Assembly: GCF_030067675.1 (NCBI RefSeq) | Contig: NZ_JASJEV010000001.1 | Coordinates: 572,309 to 636,308, forward strand | Direction: 5' to 3' | From: Chelatococcus albus | GTDB lineage: Bacteria > Pseudomonadota > Alphaproteobacteria > Rhizobiales > Beijerinckiaceae | DNA length: 64,000 nt | Shown here: positions 1,081 to 57,150 of the stretch, piece after piece | How the letters are laid out: the number at the start of each line of letters is the position of its first letter | Position numbering within the stretch: position 1 is the stretch's first letter | Made by a program: the position numbers and the translations under genes | Notes under the pieces: model-generated | Databases searched by the model: none | Told to the model about the DNA's origin: nothing | What the model saw: the letters and a program-made list of their open reading frames with translations, nothing else

Positions 1081-4008
<2,928 letters not shown>

Positions 4009-4443
4009 CGGCCTCGCCGGCGGCCGCTCGCCCGCGGCATGCGGGAGCAAGAGCGCTCATGCTTGAGTACCCCTGCGCCGCTGGCAGCCAACTCCCCTCG
4101 CCCCGTGCCTGCCCCGCCCCCGGCTGACGGCGAGCCACCGGCAGCCGGGGCCTCGTGCTGCCTGACGGCCCCTGCAACCCACCGGCGGAACCCTTCGCAT
4201 GTGCAGCAATGCAGGCCGTCAGGGTGCCCTGAGATCAAGGCATCGCCGAAGGAACAGGCAGATCCGTGCCTCGATTCTTAACCGTTTGCCAACGCGTTAT
4301 GCACGGCGTGCGGGGCTGACATACGATCTTCCCGCTCCTCAGCGTGCGCTGCCGCACATATATGCTGCACCGCAACAACTAATGTGTGTCCAGTTCGGCG
4401 GGGCCAACGGGAACCGGCCCGGCCGCAAGAATAGGAGAGCCCC
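4009..4443. other. 435-base intergenic region with a long inverted repeat
   Basis: No gene is evident between uvrA and the DUF1127 gene. The arms at 4161-4176 (CCTGACGGCCCCTGCA) and 4210-4223 (TGCAGGCCGTCAGG) are complementary apart from two extra C residues in the left arm, enclosing 33 bases. This could be a transcribed structure, a weak uvrA terminator without a T-run, or part of a small RNA. Near 4355-4363 there is a TATATATG tract that could hold the -10 of the following gene, but no good -35 pairs with it. Confidence 0.4.
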
Positions 4444-46048: not shown

Positions 46049-46224
46049 TCGCGGAACCGACCGGCAGAGGGGAATACCGAATGTAGGACGTGGCTCACGA
46101 AACCGCGAGGGGCCGCGCCGGCGACAGGCCCCTTGCGCGCAAGCCCCTGTCGTCGTACTGCCCGCCGCGACGAATTCGACTGGCGCGGGCGATGGCGCGA
46201 TCGCCGCGGGAGACCACACGGGCG

Positions 46225-47310
46225 ATGCAGAACGACGAGCCGAAGAACGCGGCGAACGGCCTCACCTATGCTGACGCGGGCGTGGACATCGATGCCGGCA
46301 ATGCCATGGTCGACGCCATCAAGCCGCTGGTGCGCGCCACGCGCCGCCCCGGGGCCGATGCGGAGATCGGCGGCTTCGGCGGCCTCTTCGACCTGAAGGC
46401 GGCCGGCTTCACCGACCCGATCCTGGTCGCAGCCAACGACGGTGTCGGCACCAAGGTCAAGATCGCCATCGAGACCGGCATCCACGACACCGTCGGTATC
46501 GACCTCGTGGCCATGTGCGTCAACGACCTCGTCGTGCAGGGCGCCGAACCGCTGTTCTTCCTCGACTATTACGCCACCGGCAAGCTGGAGCCCGCGGCGG
46601 GCGTCGCGATCGTCAAGGGCATCGCCGAGGGCTGCCGGCAGGCGGGCTGCGCCCTCATCGGCGGCGAGACGGCGGAAATGCCCGGCCTCTACGCGGCCGG
46701 CGACTACGATCTTGCCGGTTTCGCCGTGGGCGCGGCCGAACGCGGCCGCCTTCTGCCGCGCGGCGACGTGAAGCCGGGCGACGTGCTTCTCGGGCTTCCT
46801 TCTTCCGGCGTCCACTCGAACGGCTTCTCGCTCGTGCGCAAGGTCGTGGCGAATGCCGGCCTTGCCTGGGATGCGCCTGCCCCCTTCGCGCCGGGCACGG
46901 CACTCGGCGCCGCCCTCCTCACGCCGACGCGCATCTACGTGCGCGAGCTCCTCCGCGCGCTGAAGCGCTCGGAGGCAATCAAGGCGCTCGCGCATATCAC
47001 GGGCGGCGGCTTCCCCGACAACATTCCTCGCGTCCTGCCGGATGGCACCGGCGCCCGCCTCGATCTGTCGGCGATCGCGGTTCCCCCGGTCTTCGGCTGG
47101 CTCGCCCGTGCGGGCGGCATCGCCGAGGCCGAGATGCTGCGCACCTTCAACTGCGGCATCGGCATGGTGGTGGTGGCGGATGCCGCGGCGGCGGAGGACG
47201 TCGCCGGGGCGCTCGCGGCGGAGGGCGAAGCCCCCGTCCGGCTCGGCACGATCGTCGCGGCCGAGGCCGGCGCGCCGCGCGTGACGACGACGGGGCATCT
47301 CGCGCTGTGA
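46225..47310 (+). CDS. purM: phosphoribosylformylglycinamidine cyclo-ligase
   Basis: PurM closes the imidazole ring of AIR from FGAM with ATP, the fifth step of purine synthesis. The start at 46225 gives [26 protein letters not shown]; upstream in-frame codons lack similarity. The 361-residue protein shows [70 protein letters not shown], and [16 protein letters not shown]. The TGA stop overlaps the GTG start of purN, so the pair is translationally coupled. Confidence 0.97.
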
Positions 47311-47972
47311 CCTCATCCGGTCCCAACCGCCGTCGCACGGCCATCCTCATCTCCGGGCGCGGATCGAACATGACCGCGCTCATCGAGGCCGCGCGCGATC
47401 CGCAGTACCCGGCCGACATCGTCCTCGTCCTCTCGAACCGCCCCGAGGCGGCGGGCCTCGCCCGCGCGACGGCAGCCGGTATCGCGACGGCTGTCATCGA
47501 CCACAAGCTTTTCGGCAAGGACCGCGCCGCCTTCGACCAGGCGCTCGATTCCGTGCTGGCCGAGCACGGCATCGAGCTCGTCTGCCTCGCCGGTTTCATG
47601 CGCGTGCTGACGCCCTGGTTCGTCGAGCGCTGGACGGGACGGATGCTCAACGTTCACCCTTCCCTCCTGCCTGCCTTCCGCGGACTGGATACGCACCGCC
47701 GTGCCCTGGAAGCCGGCGTGCGCGAGCACGGCTGCACGGTGCATTTCGTCGTGCCCGAGCTCGACGCCGGCCCCATCATCCGGCAGGCTGCCCTTCCCGT
47801 CCTTCCCGGCGACACGGAGGAAACGCTCGCCGCGCGCGTGCTCGCGCAGGAGCACGTCATCTACCCGGCCGCGCTCGCCCAGGTCGCTTCTGGCAAGGCG
47901 CGTCTCGAGGGCGACCACGTGGTCTTCGCGCCGGAGGCTCAGGCAGGCGCGCGCACCGCGGCGCGCTCGTGA
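47307..47972 (+). CDS. purN: phosphoribosylglycinamide formyltransferase
   Basis: PurN transfers a formyl group from 10-formyltetrahydrofolate to GAR in purine synthesis. The start is the GTG at 47307, which overlaps the purM stop as GTGA. The 221-residue product has [55 protein letters not shown] with the catalytic Asn and His, and [19 protein letters not shown] with the active-site Asp. It is the second gene of purM-purN, followed by the compound palindromic repeat. Confidence 0.96.
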
Positions 47973-48269: not shown

Positions 48270-48989
48270 TCAGCCCAGGCCGAGCAGATCGAGGTGCGGC
48301 AGGCCGGCCCGGTCGCGCACCTCCTGCTGCCAGGCCTGCAGGAGGACCGCCCGCCGGCCGGGAATGCGCTCCGCCAGCGGTTCGAGCTCGAGGATGCGAT
48401 CCGTACGGAAATGGCGAAAGCCCTGCCTGAGCTCGCACCAGGCCACGGCGATGCGCTTGCTCTCGTAATAGGTCAGCGCGAGCGGCCACACGATCCGGTC
48501 TGTTTCCTGGCCGTCCTCGGCGCGGTAGAGCAGGCGCAGCTTGCGGCCGTCGCGAATGGCGACCCGCAGTTCGCCGAGATCGACGGACGACGGGTTCTCG
48601 GTCCATGGCGGCGGAACCAGCAGGCGATTGTCGAGGAACACGGGCCTCAGCCTCTCGGGCACCATCGCCTCGATCTTGGCGACGACATCGAGCGCGGCGC
48701 GCGCCAGATCGCGGTCACCCCGGCCGACGACCCAGCGCAGCCCGAGCATGACGGCCTCGAGCTCGTCGGGCGTGAACATCAGGGGCGGCATGTCGAACCC
48801 GCGGTCGAGCACGTAGCCGATGCCCGCCTCGCCGCGCACCGGCACGCCCTGCCCGATCAGCGCGGCAACGTCGCGATAGACGGTACGGACCGAGACTTCG
48901 AGTTCCGCGGCGATCACGTCGGCCGTCACGGGCCGGCGATGCCGGCGCAGGATCTGGAGCAGGTGCAGCAATCGGTCGGCGCGGCGCAT
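48270..48989 (-). CDS. YafY-type transcriptional regulator (HTH plus WYL domain)
   Basis: The 239-residue protein begins MRRADRLLHLLQILRRHRRPVTADVIAAELEVSVRTVYRDVAAL, a DeoR-like helix-turn-helix. GFDMPPLMFTPDELEAVMLGL follows, and a C-terminal WYL-type domain has LRLLYRAEDGQETDRIVWPLALTYYESKRIAVAWCELRQGFRHFRTDRI. WYL domains bind nucleic acid or small ligands. The start at 48989 is by family fit. It is divergent from the metaxin-like GST, with a perfect dyad in the gap, so it likely controls that gene and itself. Confidence 0.9.
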   Translation of the reverse strand: MRRADRLLHLLQILRRHRRPVTADVIAAELEVSVRTVYRDVAALIGQGVPVRGEAGIGYVLDRGFDMPPLMFTPDELEAVMLGLRWVVGRGDRDLARAALDVVAKIEAMVPERLRPVFLDNRLLVPPPWTENPSSVDLGELRVAIRDGRKLRLLYRAEDGQETDRIVWPLALTYYESKRIAVAWCELRQGFRHFRTDRILELEPLAERIPGRRAVLLQAWQQEVRDRAGLPHLDLLGLG

Positions 48990-49155
48990 CGGGCGGATCC
49001 TGGCCTCGTGTCGTGCCAGCCGCGGCAACAGCGAAACGCTTGGACGGCCGGCTCGGTTGCGACGTTTCACCGATGGCGAGGGCCCTCGCGCGGGCGCAAG
49101 GCAGGCGCGGCCGACCCTTGGCATCATCGGTTCCCGGCAACATGGCGGTATGCTG

Positions 49156-49223: not shown

Positions 49224-49943
49224 ATGATCACCCTTTACGCGTTCGGGCCGGGTTTCGGTCTCTCCGACCTCAGCCCCTTCGTCATCAAGGCCGAGATTCT
49301 CCTGAAGATGGCCGGCCTGCCCTACCGCACCGACAGGGGCGGCTTCTCGAAGGCTCCCAAGGGCAAGCTCCCCTATATCCGCGACGGGGAGCGCGTCGTC
49401 TGCGACTCCACCTTCATCAGGCTCCATCTCGAAGAGCGCCACGACATCGACTTCGATGAGGGACTATCGGCGCTCGAACGCGCGACCGGTTGGGCCTTCG
49501 AGAAGATGTGCGAGGAGCACCTCTATTGGGCGCTGGTCAGCGAACGCTGGCTGATGGAAGAGAATTTCGCCAAGGTGCGGGCAGCGATCTTCGACCAATT
49601 GCCCTGGCCGCTCAGGACCCTCGTGCCCCCGCTCATCCAGAGGAAGGTCCGCAAGGCCCTGGTAGCGCAGGGGTTCGGCCGCCATTCGCGCGAGGAAATG
49701 CTGCTGCTGGCGCGCTGCGATATCGAGGCCATCGCGACGCAACTCGGCGACAAGCCCTTCATGATGGGCGCGGCACCGAAGGGCGTGGACGCGACTGTCC
49801 ACGCCTTCCTGATGACGGTCTCGAGCGCCGATCTCGCCTCGCCACTCGTCGCCTACACGCGCGAGCATGCCAATCTCGCCGCCTACATGCAGCGCATGCA
49901 GGATCGCTTCTACGCCGAACCGGCGATGACGGAAGCCGCCTGA
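49224..49943 (+). CDS. glutathione S-transferase-like protein (metaxin/Fax type)
   Basis: The 239-residue protein has a thioredoxin-like N-terminal half (MITLYAFGPGFGLSDLSPFVIKAEILLKMAGLPY), the strand-turn PKGKLPYIRDGERVVCDSTFI and a helical C-terminal half with GFGRHSREEMLLLARCDIEAI and KPFMMGAAPKGVDATVHAFLM. This arrangement is that of the failed-axon-connections/metaxin branch of GSTs, found in bacteria as GST_N_3 plus GST_C_6 domains. Enzymatic activity is unproven. It is divergent from the YafY-type regulator and convergent with a small secreted protein gene, seven bases away. Confidence 0.85.
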   Translation: MITLYAFGPGFGLSDLSPFVIKAEILLKMAGLPYRTDRGGFSKAPKGKLPYIRDGERVVCDSTFIRLHLEERHDIDFDEGLSALERATGWAFEKMCEEHLYWALVSERWLMEENFAKVRAAIFDQLPWPLRTLVPPLIQRKVRKALVAQGFGRHSREEMLLLARCDIEAIATQLGDKPFMMGAAPKGVDATVHAFLMTVSSADLASPLVAYTREHANLAAYMQRMQDRFYAEPAMTEAA

Positions 49944-49950
49944 CCGGCGG

Positions 49951-50322
49951 TCAGCCGCCTCGGCTCACCTTGCAGGCGAGAAGCGCGTCCTCGGCCTTGG
50001 CACGGGCGCTGTCACTGAAGTAGCCCGTCGAGCGGAAGGCGTCGAACTCGTCAGGCGTCATCGCCTTCGCCACGCGGGTGGCGTAGCAGCCGCAGCGCTG
50101 GGCGTAGTTGTCGGTCTTCGATTCGGTTTCGCCCCACTGGCGCACGACACAGGCGTCGAGAATCTGTGTGCGGATCTGCTCGTTGCTGAGGCTGGAATAG
50201 TCCTTGGGCAGCCCCGCCGGGGCGGCAGAGGCCGGCGGCGGCGCGGCGCCCGCGAAGGCTGCGGCGGATGCGGCCATCGCCCCGGCCAGAACGAGAGAAA
50301 ACAAGACCCCACGCTTCGTCAT
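49951..50322 (-). CDS. small secreted Cys protein, paralogue A
   Basis: I do not recognise a named family. The 123-residue product has a signal peptide (GVLFSLVLAGAMAASAAAFAGA), an Ala/Pro-rich stretch and a compact domain with four cysteines: LDACVV, the pair in QRCGCYATRVAKAM, and ALLACKV. It shares with the next gene the pattern C-x-C-Y-A-x-R-x3-A-M-x2-D-E-x2-A-F-R-x-T-G-Y-F, then R-A-K-A. The mature protein would fold in the periplasm with two disulfides or bind a cofactor. It lies 203 bases downstream of paralogue B on the same strand. Confidence 0.85.
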   Translation of the reverse strand: MTKRGVLFSLVLAGAMAASAAAFAGAAPPPASAAPAGLPKDYSSLSNEQIRTQILDACVVRQWGETESKTDNYAQRCGCYATRVAKAMTPDEFDAFRSTGYFSDSARAKAEDALLACKVSRGG

Positions 50323-50525
50323 CGCTGTCGCCCCGCTCCGCGCTTCCGGCAACGGGCCGCACACCCGTCGCCAGGTCCCGCCCGTGATCAATTCTGATGA
50401 GCCAGGGCGGGATGGAACGGAGAACCGGTACCCGCCTTTCATCATCCCGCTCTGGCACGCGCTCGTTGTCGCGCGTGCTGCGGCGCGTCAAGCGCCAAAG
50501 ATGGCGGAGCAGGTCTGCGGGACGA

Positions 50526-50870
50526 TCAGATCGGACGCTTGAGGTTGCAGGCGTCGAGCGCTGCGAGCGCCTTGGCGCGGGTCACGTCGTTGAAATAGCC
50601 GGTTTGGCGGAAGGCAGCGACCTCGTCCTCGCCCATCGCGGCGATCGTCCTGTTGGCGTAACAGCGGCAGGGGCTGCGCAGGGTCTCCTGCGGCGTGCCC
50701 TGGAGCTGCGCCTGGGTCACGAGGCAGCCCTTGTAGGCGCGCTCGCCGATCTGCGGCCGGCTCAACCTGGCCGCGGTCGGATCCGGCGGCGGCAGGGCGG
50801 CCGTCGATCCGGCGGCGAAAGCCGATGTGGCGACGAACAGACCGATGGCGACCAGAAGCAAACCACGCAC
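50526..50870 (-). CDS. small secreted Cys protein, paralogue B
   Basis: This 114-residue protein starts at the GTG at 50870, which has a GGGAGG site six bases upstream. It has a signal peptide (VRGLLLVAIGLFVATSAFA), a Pro-rich stretch and the same four-Cys domain as its neighbour: YKGCLV, SPCRCYANRTIAAM, and LDACNL, with GYFNDVTRAKALAAL near the end. It is 45 bases downstream of the molybdopterin oxidoreductase stop, so the two are probably co-transcribed. Function unknown. The duplication with divergence suggests two roles or two partners. Confidence 0.85.
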   Translation of the reverse strand: MRGLLLVAIGLFVATSAFAAGSTAALPPPDPTAARLSRPQIGERAYKGCLVTQAQLQGTPQETLRSPCRCYANRTIAAMGEDEVAAFRQTGYFNDVTRAKALAALDACNLKRPI

Positions 50871-50914
50871 GCGCAACCTCCCAGCCTCGTTGCGGACGAG
50901 AGTATGTCGCCGGC

Positions 50915-53005
50915 TCACGCCTTGCTCAACCACACCTTGTTGTCGTGGAAGGCGGCGCCGCCGAAGGGAGCCGGCTGGTCGGCGCCCGTGAGCGTATTGA
51001 TGCCGCGGCCGTCCTCGAAGGCACTGTTGGGCCAGATCGATTCGGCGATCAGCACACCGCGGCGCACGCCGTCATAGACCCGCGCGTGAAGGCGCACCTC
51101 GCCACGGCGGTTGCCGAGGACCACCCTCTCGCCGTCCGCGATGCCGAGGGCGGCCGCGTCGTCCGGATGGACGAAGACCTCCGGGCGCCCGCCCTCCTTG
51201 GCCTGCGACGTTGGCGTCTCGGTGAAGGTGGAATTGAGGAAGTTGCGCGCCGGGCTGGTGGAGAGGCGGAAGGGATGTTCGGCGTCCGCCTCCTCGATCA
51301 CGGGCCAATGATCCGGCAGCGCCGGCATGGCCTGCCACGGCCCCATGGGACCGGCATTCGTCATGGGCACGCGGCTCCAGTCCGGCCTGAAGCGGAACCT
51401 GCCGTCCTCGTAGCCGAAGCCGTCGAGGAAATGCGCCTGCCGGAAGGGCGGCTGCACGTCGAGCCAGCGGCTGGCCTGGAGCTCCTCCACCGTGCCCCGG
51501 TCGGTATTGCGCAGCGTCCAGTCGATGAGCTCGCGCGCACTCATGGAAAAGCCCGGGTGCTCGGCGCCGAGGCGCCGGGCGAGCGCGCAGATGACCTCGT
51601 GGTTCGAGCAGCACTCTCCGGGGGGATCGACGAGCTTCGGCCCGAGGAGCACGTGCTGGTGCCCGCCGCCCTGATAGAGGTCGTCGTGCTCAAGGAACAT
51701 GGTCGCCGGCAGCACGACGTCGGCCATCTTCGCCGTCTCCGTCATGAACTGCTCGTGGACGCAGACGAAGAGGTCCTCGCGGGCGAAGCCCTGCTTCACC
51801 CGCTCCTGCTCCGGCGCGACCGACACGGGATTGGTGTTCTGGATGAGCATGGCCTTGACCGGCGGCCCGTGGCGCAGCGCCTCCGCGTCGCCCGTGAGCA
51901 CGCGCCCGATCTGCGACTGGTCGAGCTGCCGCACGGAGGCATCGAGCGCGTCGAGCCCCTCGATCATGGTCTTGCGCCAGCGGAAGATGCCGCTGTTCGA
52001 GTGCAGCGCGCCGCCGCCCTCGTGGCGCCAGGCCCCGAGCACGGCCGGAATGCTGAGCGCCGCGTGCATGCCAACCGCCCCGTTGCGCTGCCGCGCGAAG
52101 CCATAGCCCAGGCGGAAATAGGCGGCCCGACGCTCGCCGAGGAGCGCGGCGAAGGCCTCGATCTCGGCGGCGGGAAGGCCCGTGATGGCGGAGGCCCATT
52201 CCGGCGTCCGCGACTTCAGATGCGCCTCGAGCTCGTCCGGACAGTCCGTGTATTGCGCGAGATAGTCGCGATCGGCGTGGCCGTCGCGGAAGAGCACGTG
52301 CATGACGGCGCAGGCAAGCGCCGCATCCGTGCCCGGCCGCAGCAGGAGCGCCATGTCCGCCTGCTTCATCGTCGCGTTCATGTAGACGTCGACGGCCACG
52401 ATCCTGGCGCCGCGCTCCTTGCGCGCCTTGAGGGCGTGGGTCATGACGTTGACCTGTGTGTGCACCGCGTTGGTGCCCCACAGGACGATGCAGTCCGACT
52501 TCGCCATCTCGCGCGGGTCGGTGCCGGCGAGCCGGCCGGTGCCGGCGATATAGCCCGCCCAGGATAGAGCCGTGCAGATGGTGGAATACTGGCGGGAGTA
52601 TTTCTTGACGTGGCGCAGGCGGTTGATGCCGTCGCGCATCACGAGGCCCATCGTGCCCGCGTAGTAGTAGGGCCAGACGCTCTCAGGGCCGAAGTCGCGC
52701 TCGGCCGCGAGGAATCGCTCGGCCACGATGTCGAGCGCCTCGTCCCAGGAGATGCGCTCGAACTCCCCCGCCCCCTTCGGGCCGACGCGCTTCAGGGGAT
52801 GCAGGACACGCCCGGGGCTGTGCACGCGCTCGGCATAGCGCGCCACCTTGGCGCAGATCACGCCCGCCGTGTAGCTGTTGTCGCCCGCCCCGTGGAGGCG
52901 CCCGATGGTGCGGCCGTCGATCACCTCGACGTCGAGGGCGCAGGTCGACGGGCAGTCGTGGGGGCAGGCTGAGAAGCCGCGCGTGATCTTGGGCTGAACG
53001 GTCAT
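50915..53005 (-). CDS. molybdopterin oxidoreductase family protein
   Basis: The 696-residue protein belongs to the DMSO reductase/formate dehydrogenase superfamily. It begins after the ATG at 53005 with an N-terminal [4Fe-4S] motif, ACPHDCPSTCAL ... GVICAKVARY (C-x3-C-x3-C-x27-C). Molybdopterin-binding segments follow (IVLWGTNAVHTQVNVM; LPATMFLEHDDLYQGGGHQ) and a C-terminal molydopterin-dinucleotide domain (RLSTSPARNFLNSTFTET). There is no Tat signal, so it should be cytoplasmic. Cys in STICTALSWAGY is a possible metal ligand. Substrate unknown. The small Cys protein B lies 45 bases downstream. Confidence 0.9.
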   Translation of the reverse strand: MTVQPKITRGFSACPHDCPSTCALDVEVIDGRTIGRLHGAGDNSYTAGVICAKVARYAERVHSPGRVLHPLKRVGPKGAGEFERISWDEALDIVAERFLAAERDFGPESVWPYYYAGTMGLVMRDGINRLRHVKKYSRQYSTICTALSWAGYIAGTGRLAGTDPREMAKSDCIVLWGTNAVHTQVNVMTHALKARKERGARIVAVDVYMNATMKQADMALLLRPGTDAALACAVMHVLFRDGHADRDYLAQYTDCPDELEAHLKSRTPEWASAITGLPAAEIEAFAALLGERRAAYFRLGYGFARQRNGAVGMHAALSIPAVLGAWRHEGGGALHSNSGIFRWRKTMIEGLDALDASVRQLDQSQIGRVLTGDAEALRHGPPVKAMLIQNTNPVSVAPEQERVKQGFAREDLFVCVHEQFMTETAKMADVVLPATMFLEHDDLYQGGGHQHVLLGPKLVDPPGECCSNHEVICALARRLGAEHPGFSMSARELIDWTLRNTDRGTVEELQASRWLDVQPPFRQAHFLDGFGYEDGRFRFRPDWSRVPMTNAGPMGPWQAMPALPDHWPVIEEADAEHPFRLSTSPARNFLNSTFTETPTSQAKEGGRPEVFVHPDDAAALGIADGERVVLGNRRGEVRLHARVYDGVRRGVLIAESIWPNSAFEDGRGINTLTGADQPAPFGGAAFHDNKVWLSKA

Positions 53006-53132: not shown

Positions 53133-53555
53133 TCAGCCGACGATCTCGTTGCCGGAGAAGAACTGGGCGATCTCGATCACCGCCGTCTCCGGCGCATCCG
53201 AGCCGTGCACCGAGTTCTCGCCGATCGACTTGGCGAAGAGCTTGCGGATCGTGCCGTCGGCGGCCTGGGCGGGGTTCGTCGCCCCCATCACGTCGCGGTA
53301 CCTGGCGATGGCGTTCTCGCCCTCGAGCACCTGCACCACGACCGGGCCGGAGGTCATGAACTCGACGAGCTCGCCGAAGAAGGGGCGCTCCTTGTGCACC
53401 GCGTAGAAGGTCTCGGCCTGCTCGCGCGTCATGCGGATGCGCTTCTGCGCCACGATGCGCAGGCCCGCCTGCTCGATGACGGCGTTGATGGCGCCCGTGA
53501 GATTGCGCGCCGTCGCATCGGGCTTGAGGATCGAAAAGGTGCGCTCGAGAACCAT
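53133..53555 (-). CDS. ndk: nucleoside-diphosphate kinase
   Basis: Ndk moves the gamma-phosphate from ATP to other NDPs through a phospho-His, balancing nucleotide pools. The start at 53555 gives [19 protein letters not shown] and 140 residues, the usual length. Key parts are the Lys of ILKPDAT, the RxRMT helix ([23 protein letters not shown]), [26 protein letters not shown], and the catalytic His in [21 protein letters not shown]. It is monocistronic with its own terminator. Confidence 0.97.
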
Positions 53556-56838: not shown

Positions 56839-57150
56839 ATGCTGAACAAGGTCCTCGGTGCCGCCGCAGCCGCCGTGCTCGTGGCTTCCCTGACGACGCC
56901 CGTCGCGGCGCAGACCGCCCAGCCGGCGAAGCCCGCGCCGACGCAGACCGCGCCCGCAGCCCCGGCACAGCCCGCCGCGCCGGCGACGGAGACAGAGAAG
57001 AAGGAAGCGACCCCCGCCCAGCAGGCGGCGCGCAACCGCATGAAGGAATGCGGCGCCGAGTGGCAGAAGATGAAGGCCGAGAACAAGACCGGCGGCAAGA
57101 CCTGGCGGCAGTTCTCGAGCGAATGCCTCAAGGCCAAGAGAACGAACTGA
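56839..57150 (+). CDS. PsiF-like small secreted protein
   Basis: This 103-residue protein has an AGGAGGG site before its ATG and a signal peptide (MLNKVLGAAAAAVLVASLTTPVAAQ). A Pro/Ala/Thr linker follows, then a PsiF-type motif: RMKECGAEWQKMKAENKTGGKTWRQFSSECLK with two cysteines about 27 residues apart. PsiF was first seen as phosphate-starvation-inducible in E. coli, but its function is unknown. The region before it (56605-56838) holds no recognisable gene. Confidence 0.85.
   Translation: MLNKVLGAAAAAVLVASLTTPVAAQTAQPAKPAPTQTAPAAPAQPAAPATETEKKEATPAQQAARNRMKECGAEWQKMKAENKTGGKTWRQFSSECLKAKRTN

Follow-up and report, generated by a model that had tools for sequence, protein, structure and literature searches.

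The window analysed here is a 64,000-nucleotide stretch of the Chelatococcus albus genome (contig NZ_JASJEV010000001.1, positions 572,309 to 636,308), and it contains two adjoining leftwards-transcribed genes that encode small exported proteins with four cysteines, which we refer to as proteins A and B. They lie downstream of a gene for a molybdopterin oxidoreductase (the Mo enzyme), and the locus is organized as follows.

46174–47972, plus strand: purM-purN, convergent and on the far side of the four-cysteine (Cys) genes, by tblastn synteny in most loci
48270–49127, minus strand: HTH_11-WYL regulator, belonging to a GST-WYL block common with Bosea (Pfam and synteny)
49224–49943, plus strand: GST-like protein (Tom37/GST_N_4), convergent with A (Pfam and synteny)
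49951–50322, minus strand: protein A, 123 aa, exported four-cysteine protein (ORF and profile family)
50526–50870, minus strand: protein B, 114 aa, GTG start, exported four-cysteine protein (ORF and profile family)
50915–53005, minus strand: molybdopterin oxidoreductase with an N-terminal [4Fe-4S], 696 aa, upstream of B (PF04879, PF00384, PF01568)
53133–53555, minus strand: ndk (nucleoside diphosphate kinase), a conserved upstream neighbour, near the Mo or Cys gene in most loci read

A and B are genuine open reading frames, and the ORFs and sequences agree with a preliminary description of this DNA, which had reported two adjoining four-cysteine signal-peptide proteins of 123 and 114 residues sharing the motifs CxCYAxR, then AFRxTGYFxD, then RAKA. 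Each protein has exactly four cysteines (residues 58, 77, 79 and 117 of A) spaced C-x18-CxC-x37-C, and CxxC is absent from both. By eye, both N-termini are signal-peptide-like, opening with a short basic stretch that leads into a hydrophobic run and a Sec-like end at AFA/GA or AFA/AG (the slash marking the end), leaving mature proteins of approximately residues 25–123 (A) and 20–114 (B), each with one methionine and no histidine. A ribosome-binding-like GGGAGG is located 6 nt before the GTG start of B, and this start is separated from the stop codon of the Mo gene by 44 bases, such that the closeness of the two genes described earlier stands but the exact figure of 45 bases does not. A follows B in the same orientation after 203 nt and is 38–42% identical to it, and in a promoter and terminator scan the stretches separating Mo, B and A showed neither sigma-70-like nor terminator-like sequences. 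The likeness of A and B is not due to chance, since a profile built from 22 relatives finds A, B and homologues across the order with E-values down to 3e-48, and B-type orthologues (66–70% identical) are present at the same locus in three other Chelatococcus species.

Homologues were found in 22 of 60 relatives in the first search, and by profile the Cys gene is present in 64 of the 149 genomes of a family sample and in 18 of the 121 of an order sample; a wider profile, which includes some of the very sequences that it finds, detects it in 36 of 199 order genomes. For the genome-contig scan, A as a lone query returned nothing and an order-wide alignment (A1) was too diverse, and a six-member alignment (A2) worked. 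Class-wide searches beyond the order, with only 15 to 22 candidates scored per genome, gave no convincing homologue, and the best match outside the order (G105, E 7e-5) has only the general C...CxC...C layout in common. Neither Pfam (22 and 28 family members scanned) nor NCBIfam (28 members, no curated cut-off reached) gives anything above chance, A and B have no PDB sequence matches, and the literature returned nothing on the four-cysteine family or on the ndk-Mo-purM locus. The Pfam and NCBIfam scans bear out the earlier remark that no named family accommodates these proteins, and the family to which A and B belong is unnamed, spread across the Hyphomicrobiales, constrained and ordinary in kind. 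A toxin-immunity lipoprotein was also considered and dropped, there being no Pfam match.

All four cysteines are kept in each of the 66 homologues for which the spacing was counted, and 49 of these have exactly C-x18-CxC-x37-C. Homologues read later mostly keep the four cysteines too, with the exception of the G608 homologue (L217, 5113–5481), which lies directly behind the Mo gene and lacks both C3 and C4 but retains C1 and C2; the full set of four is thus not absolutely required. Lipobox-like N-termini are seen by eye in several relatives (G005, G011, G032, G045, G348 and others), and the best explanation is that most family members are soluble periplasmic proteins and that some relatives are lipoproteins. 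Two distant homologues (L180, 4891–5955, in G395, and L182, 5849–6403, in G354) are located elsewhere in genomes that both lack a Mo orthologue, and these are apparently anchored by a single transmembrane segment, with FCRCYG replacing CxCYA.

An AlphaFold2 model of B built from 36 sequences has a mean pLDDT of 88.7 and helices at 12–16, 19–38, 42–59, 62–71 and 76–88, and the model of A (20 sequences) has four helices at a pLDDT of 77.5. In the B model helix 19–38 carries C30, helix 42–59, which runs antiparallel to it, carries C49 and C51, and C89 comes just past the last helix, and judging by helix register C30 faces C49/C51 across the antiparallel hairpin. Two structural disulfides are the natural reading of this placement, and A and B are each predicted to consist of approximately four helices, probably with two disulfides that pair either as C1-C2/C3-C4 or as C1-C3/C2-C4; the joint loss of C3 and C4 in G608 offers a hint towards C1-C2 and C3-C4. 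The fold yields no function, as neither Foldseek (best E 1.1) nor VIA (best Z 4.9) returned a significant match. Matches such as spidroin domains and the sulfhydryl oxidase Ac92 (Z 4.9) were rejected as structural relatives, being within noise for helical bundles.

On the models, two structural disulfides appear more likely than a redox or a metal site. If A and B were thiol-redox proteins, the CxC pair and its partners would form a switchable or electron-carrying periplasmic dithiol, which would suit conserved cysteines in an exported protein with a redox enzyme next door. However, A and B are not thioredoxin-like or Dsb proteins, which have CxxC in a thioredoxin fold, since both lack CxxC and the B model is all-helical; the geometry suits a helical hairpin stapled by two structural disulfides, and the Cys gene is kept where there is no Mo enzyme, so that a redox function is highly improbable. 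Binding of copper or another soft metal through the four cysteines is marginally less probable again: the CxC motif would fit, and the top Foldseek row for the A model is the periplasmic cuprous-ion protein 7vw1 (E 1.4, TM 0.25, non-significant), but the mature proteins offer a single methionine and no histidine, and the usual fate of cysteine sets in periplasmic proteins is to become disulfides. With no CxxC, few methionines, no histidine and cysteines set for structural disulfides, the redox or metal role that had been proposed from the neighbouring enzyme is not indicated. A redox chaperone of the Mo enzyme was dropped as a candidate, since such chaperones are cytoplasmic and the Cys protein is exported.

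The closest tested analogue in behaviour is ScwA, a four-cysteine periplasmic protein in which two disulfides were shown by AMS assay; both the stability of ScwA and its control over a lytic transglycosylase depend on them (PMC7933661). ScwA and LprI (PF07007) are like A and B in being exported, mostly helical and equipped with four conserved cysteines, whereas ScwA is 275 aa long and has a very different cysteine spacing and another genome context. The PF07007 profile does not match A, B or any member of alignments A1 and A6 in hmmscan at E-values up to 1. HdeA-type periplasmic acid chaperones are likewise small, helical and exported and contain a disulfide, whereas two disulfides are expected in A and B. 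A, B and the scanned family members do not match the HdeA/HdeB Pfam models at E ≤ 1, and HdeA is absent among the Foldseek and VIA matches listed, although short helical models match only weakly in such searches. By analogy with these proteins a binding or chaperone-like role of A and B in the envelope can be suggested tentatively, as a doubtful proposal.

The Mo enzyme has the Pfam Fe4S4, molybdopterin and dinucleotide-binding domains, which place it in the formate dehydrogenase/BisC superfamily of cytoplasmic enzymes with an N-terminal [4Fe-4S], but it differs from the named formate dehydrogenase and BisC families in falling below every NCBIfam cut-off among the families listed, such that it has no named equivalog. 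As stated in the preliminary description, its N-terminus (MTVQPKITRGF...) shows no Tat motif, and by its sequence features it is a cytoplasmic-type enzyme. Orthologues at approximately 58–81% identity are present in 74 of the 121 genomes of the order sample and in 92 of the 149 of the family sample, and the enzyme is an order-wide, stand-alone protein with no redox subunit seen alongside.

Across the order the locus is ndk–Mo–Cys, followed on the opposite strand by convergent purN-purM, and B has this same family address, just downstream of a Mo orthologue and between ndk and purN. Further out there are often genes for CDP-alcohol phosphatidyltransferase, AI-2E and Hda-like proteins. A psiF-like small secreted protein with a sub-threshold PF07769 match (56839–57150) is conserved near the locus in several relatives. 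Of the first-round order-level homologues, 10 of 13 lie directly behind the Mo gene; among 15 further ones, found by profile and not by position, 11 are downstream of Mo and another three are between ndk and purN. Homologues behind Mo across the order indicate that the adjacency is old, and the position next to the Mo enzyme is retained far outside the genus as well. Both genes are carried by 45 genomes of the family sample, and in 39 of these the Cys gene is 17–300 nt downstream of Mo on the same strand; in the remaining six the two are 0.8–1.2 kb apart. At L110, L123 and L143 the Cys gene is approximately 1 kb from Mo and beside purM, and at L143 the gap contains a divergent glycosyltransferase gene.

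This arrangement could reflect a functional pair, in which the exported Cys protein shares a pathway with the Mo enzyme (for instance by binding, sensing or handling a substrate or product of the enzyme in the periplasm) and the lineages without Mo use another partner. Same-strand adjacency throughout the order, mostly at 17–300 nt and including homologues found by profile alone, is consistent with such a pair and leaves room for a tie in most lineages, and the preliminary description had reckoned on homologues without the enzyme in most genomes if there were none, yet 45 of the 64 Cys-bearing genomes have a Mo orthologue. But the ndk...purN-purM block is vertically inherited, so the adjacency can be explained without a shared function. 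Moreover, the other 19 of the 64 Cys-bearing genomes have no Mo orthologue, no Cys gene is detected in 47 of the 92 Mo genomes, and co-occurrence gives a Fisher p-value of 0.09 for the family sample and, when the first profile is used, of 0.19 for the order sample. With the wider profile the order-sample co-occurrence is mildly over the base rate (19 of 23 versus 55 of 98, Fisher p 0.03), but this value is uncorrected for relatedness and is biased, because some rows (G047, G048) were identified or lengthened by inspecting the DNA next to Mo.

The loci without Mo make up 15 of the 57 loci in the named collection, mostly from Bosea, and their Cys genes have pN/pS values of 0.10–0.20 in Bosea and 0.03 in Camelimonas. 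Since these genes are under purifying selection, a function needing this Mo enzyme is excluded for the Mo-less lineages. The functional tie to the enzyme that had been proposed earlier is therefore not upheld, given the genomes in which either gene occurs without the other and the constraint in Mo-less Bosea; adjacency makes a weak case for a functional link, and we consider a functional pair unlikely. A broader variant would unite the two proteins in an ancestral pathway of the Hyphomicrobiales that spans two compartments (for example with the compound converted by the Mo enzyme being captured or sensed in the periplasm), with the Cys protein reused after Mo loss and a foreign second copy in this strain relaxing the constraint on B; this seems less likely still. 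The Mo-less Bosea loci also contain a divergent gene between ndk and the Cys gene; at L121, the one locus checked by profile, this gene (3390–4280, minus strand) encodes MipA, an outer-membrane protein (PF06629, E 4e-31), and a similar ORF is present in L111.

GST-like and WYL genes separate Cys from purN in many Bosea genomes and also in this window; they are missing from the loci of the three other Chelatococcus species, with the GST gene not found anywhere in those three genomes. The GST-WYL block may have arrived together with A. A and B had been described as tandem copies, which if read as a local duplication followed by divergence in this strain would agree with their proximity, shared orientation and level of identity. 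In the tree, however, they come from different branches. B groups with its three Chelatococcus orthologues (98/92 for B with G001 and G002) and is, by this placement, a vertical Chelatococcus orthologue, and A falls outside a 100/99 clade that holds B; it joins copies from the C. asaccharovorans group and from another Mo-less genus in a nine-row group of weak support (39/85). AU tests reject a sister pairing of A and B (p-AU 0.003) and also a grouping of A with the full set of Chelatococcus B copies (p 0.028), but not A with the C. asaccharovorans copies (p 0.56). The relatives closest to A, at 54% identity, occur singly in genomes without Mo, and no second genome with two copies was found in the family sample. 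The alignment has 91 columns, many forks lack resolution, and with so few columns there is room for long-branch effects; the tree is nevertheless good evidence against local duplication, without fixing the donor of A, and such a duplication is very unlikely. The pN/pS of B is 0.39–0.48, compared with 0.13 for the pair C. sambhunathii and C. composti, and this faster change, in a single comparison, would fit a relaxed constraint after the arrival of A.

The account that we favour, at somewhat better than even confidence, joins structural disulfides, independence from the Mo enzyme and two separate origins of A and B. The family fold would be a bundle of about four helices stapled by two structural disulfides. 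The ancestral Cys gene would have been positioned just downstream of Mo in an ndk-Mo-Cys-purN-purM block, probably co-transcribed with the Mo enzyme, and its product would act independently in the envelope, such that purifying selection persists after Mo loss. A would derive from a lineage now found in Mo-less relatives, having been gained horizontally, with or without the adjoining GST-WYL genes, or being an old copy lost elsewhere. A and B would be neither redox catalysts nor metal carriers, and we infer for them a disulfide-stapled helical protein of the ScwA/LprI or HdeA type, presumably acting on an envelope partner by binding or in a chaperone-like manner.

These comparisons define an unnamed, constrained family that extends over a large order, including Bosea, Chelatococcus, Camelimonas and others, and has a fixed genomic address. 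They also illustrate that conserved adjacency alone does not amount to a shared pathway, as the two genes come apart where the Mo gene has been lost naturally.
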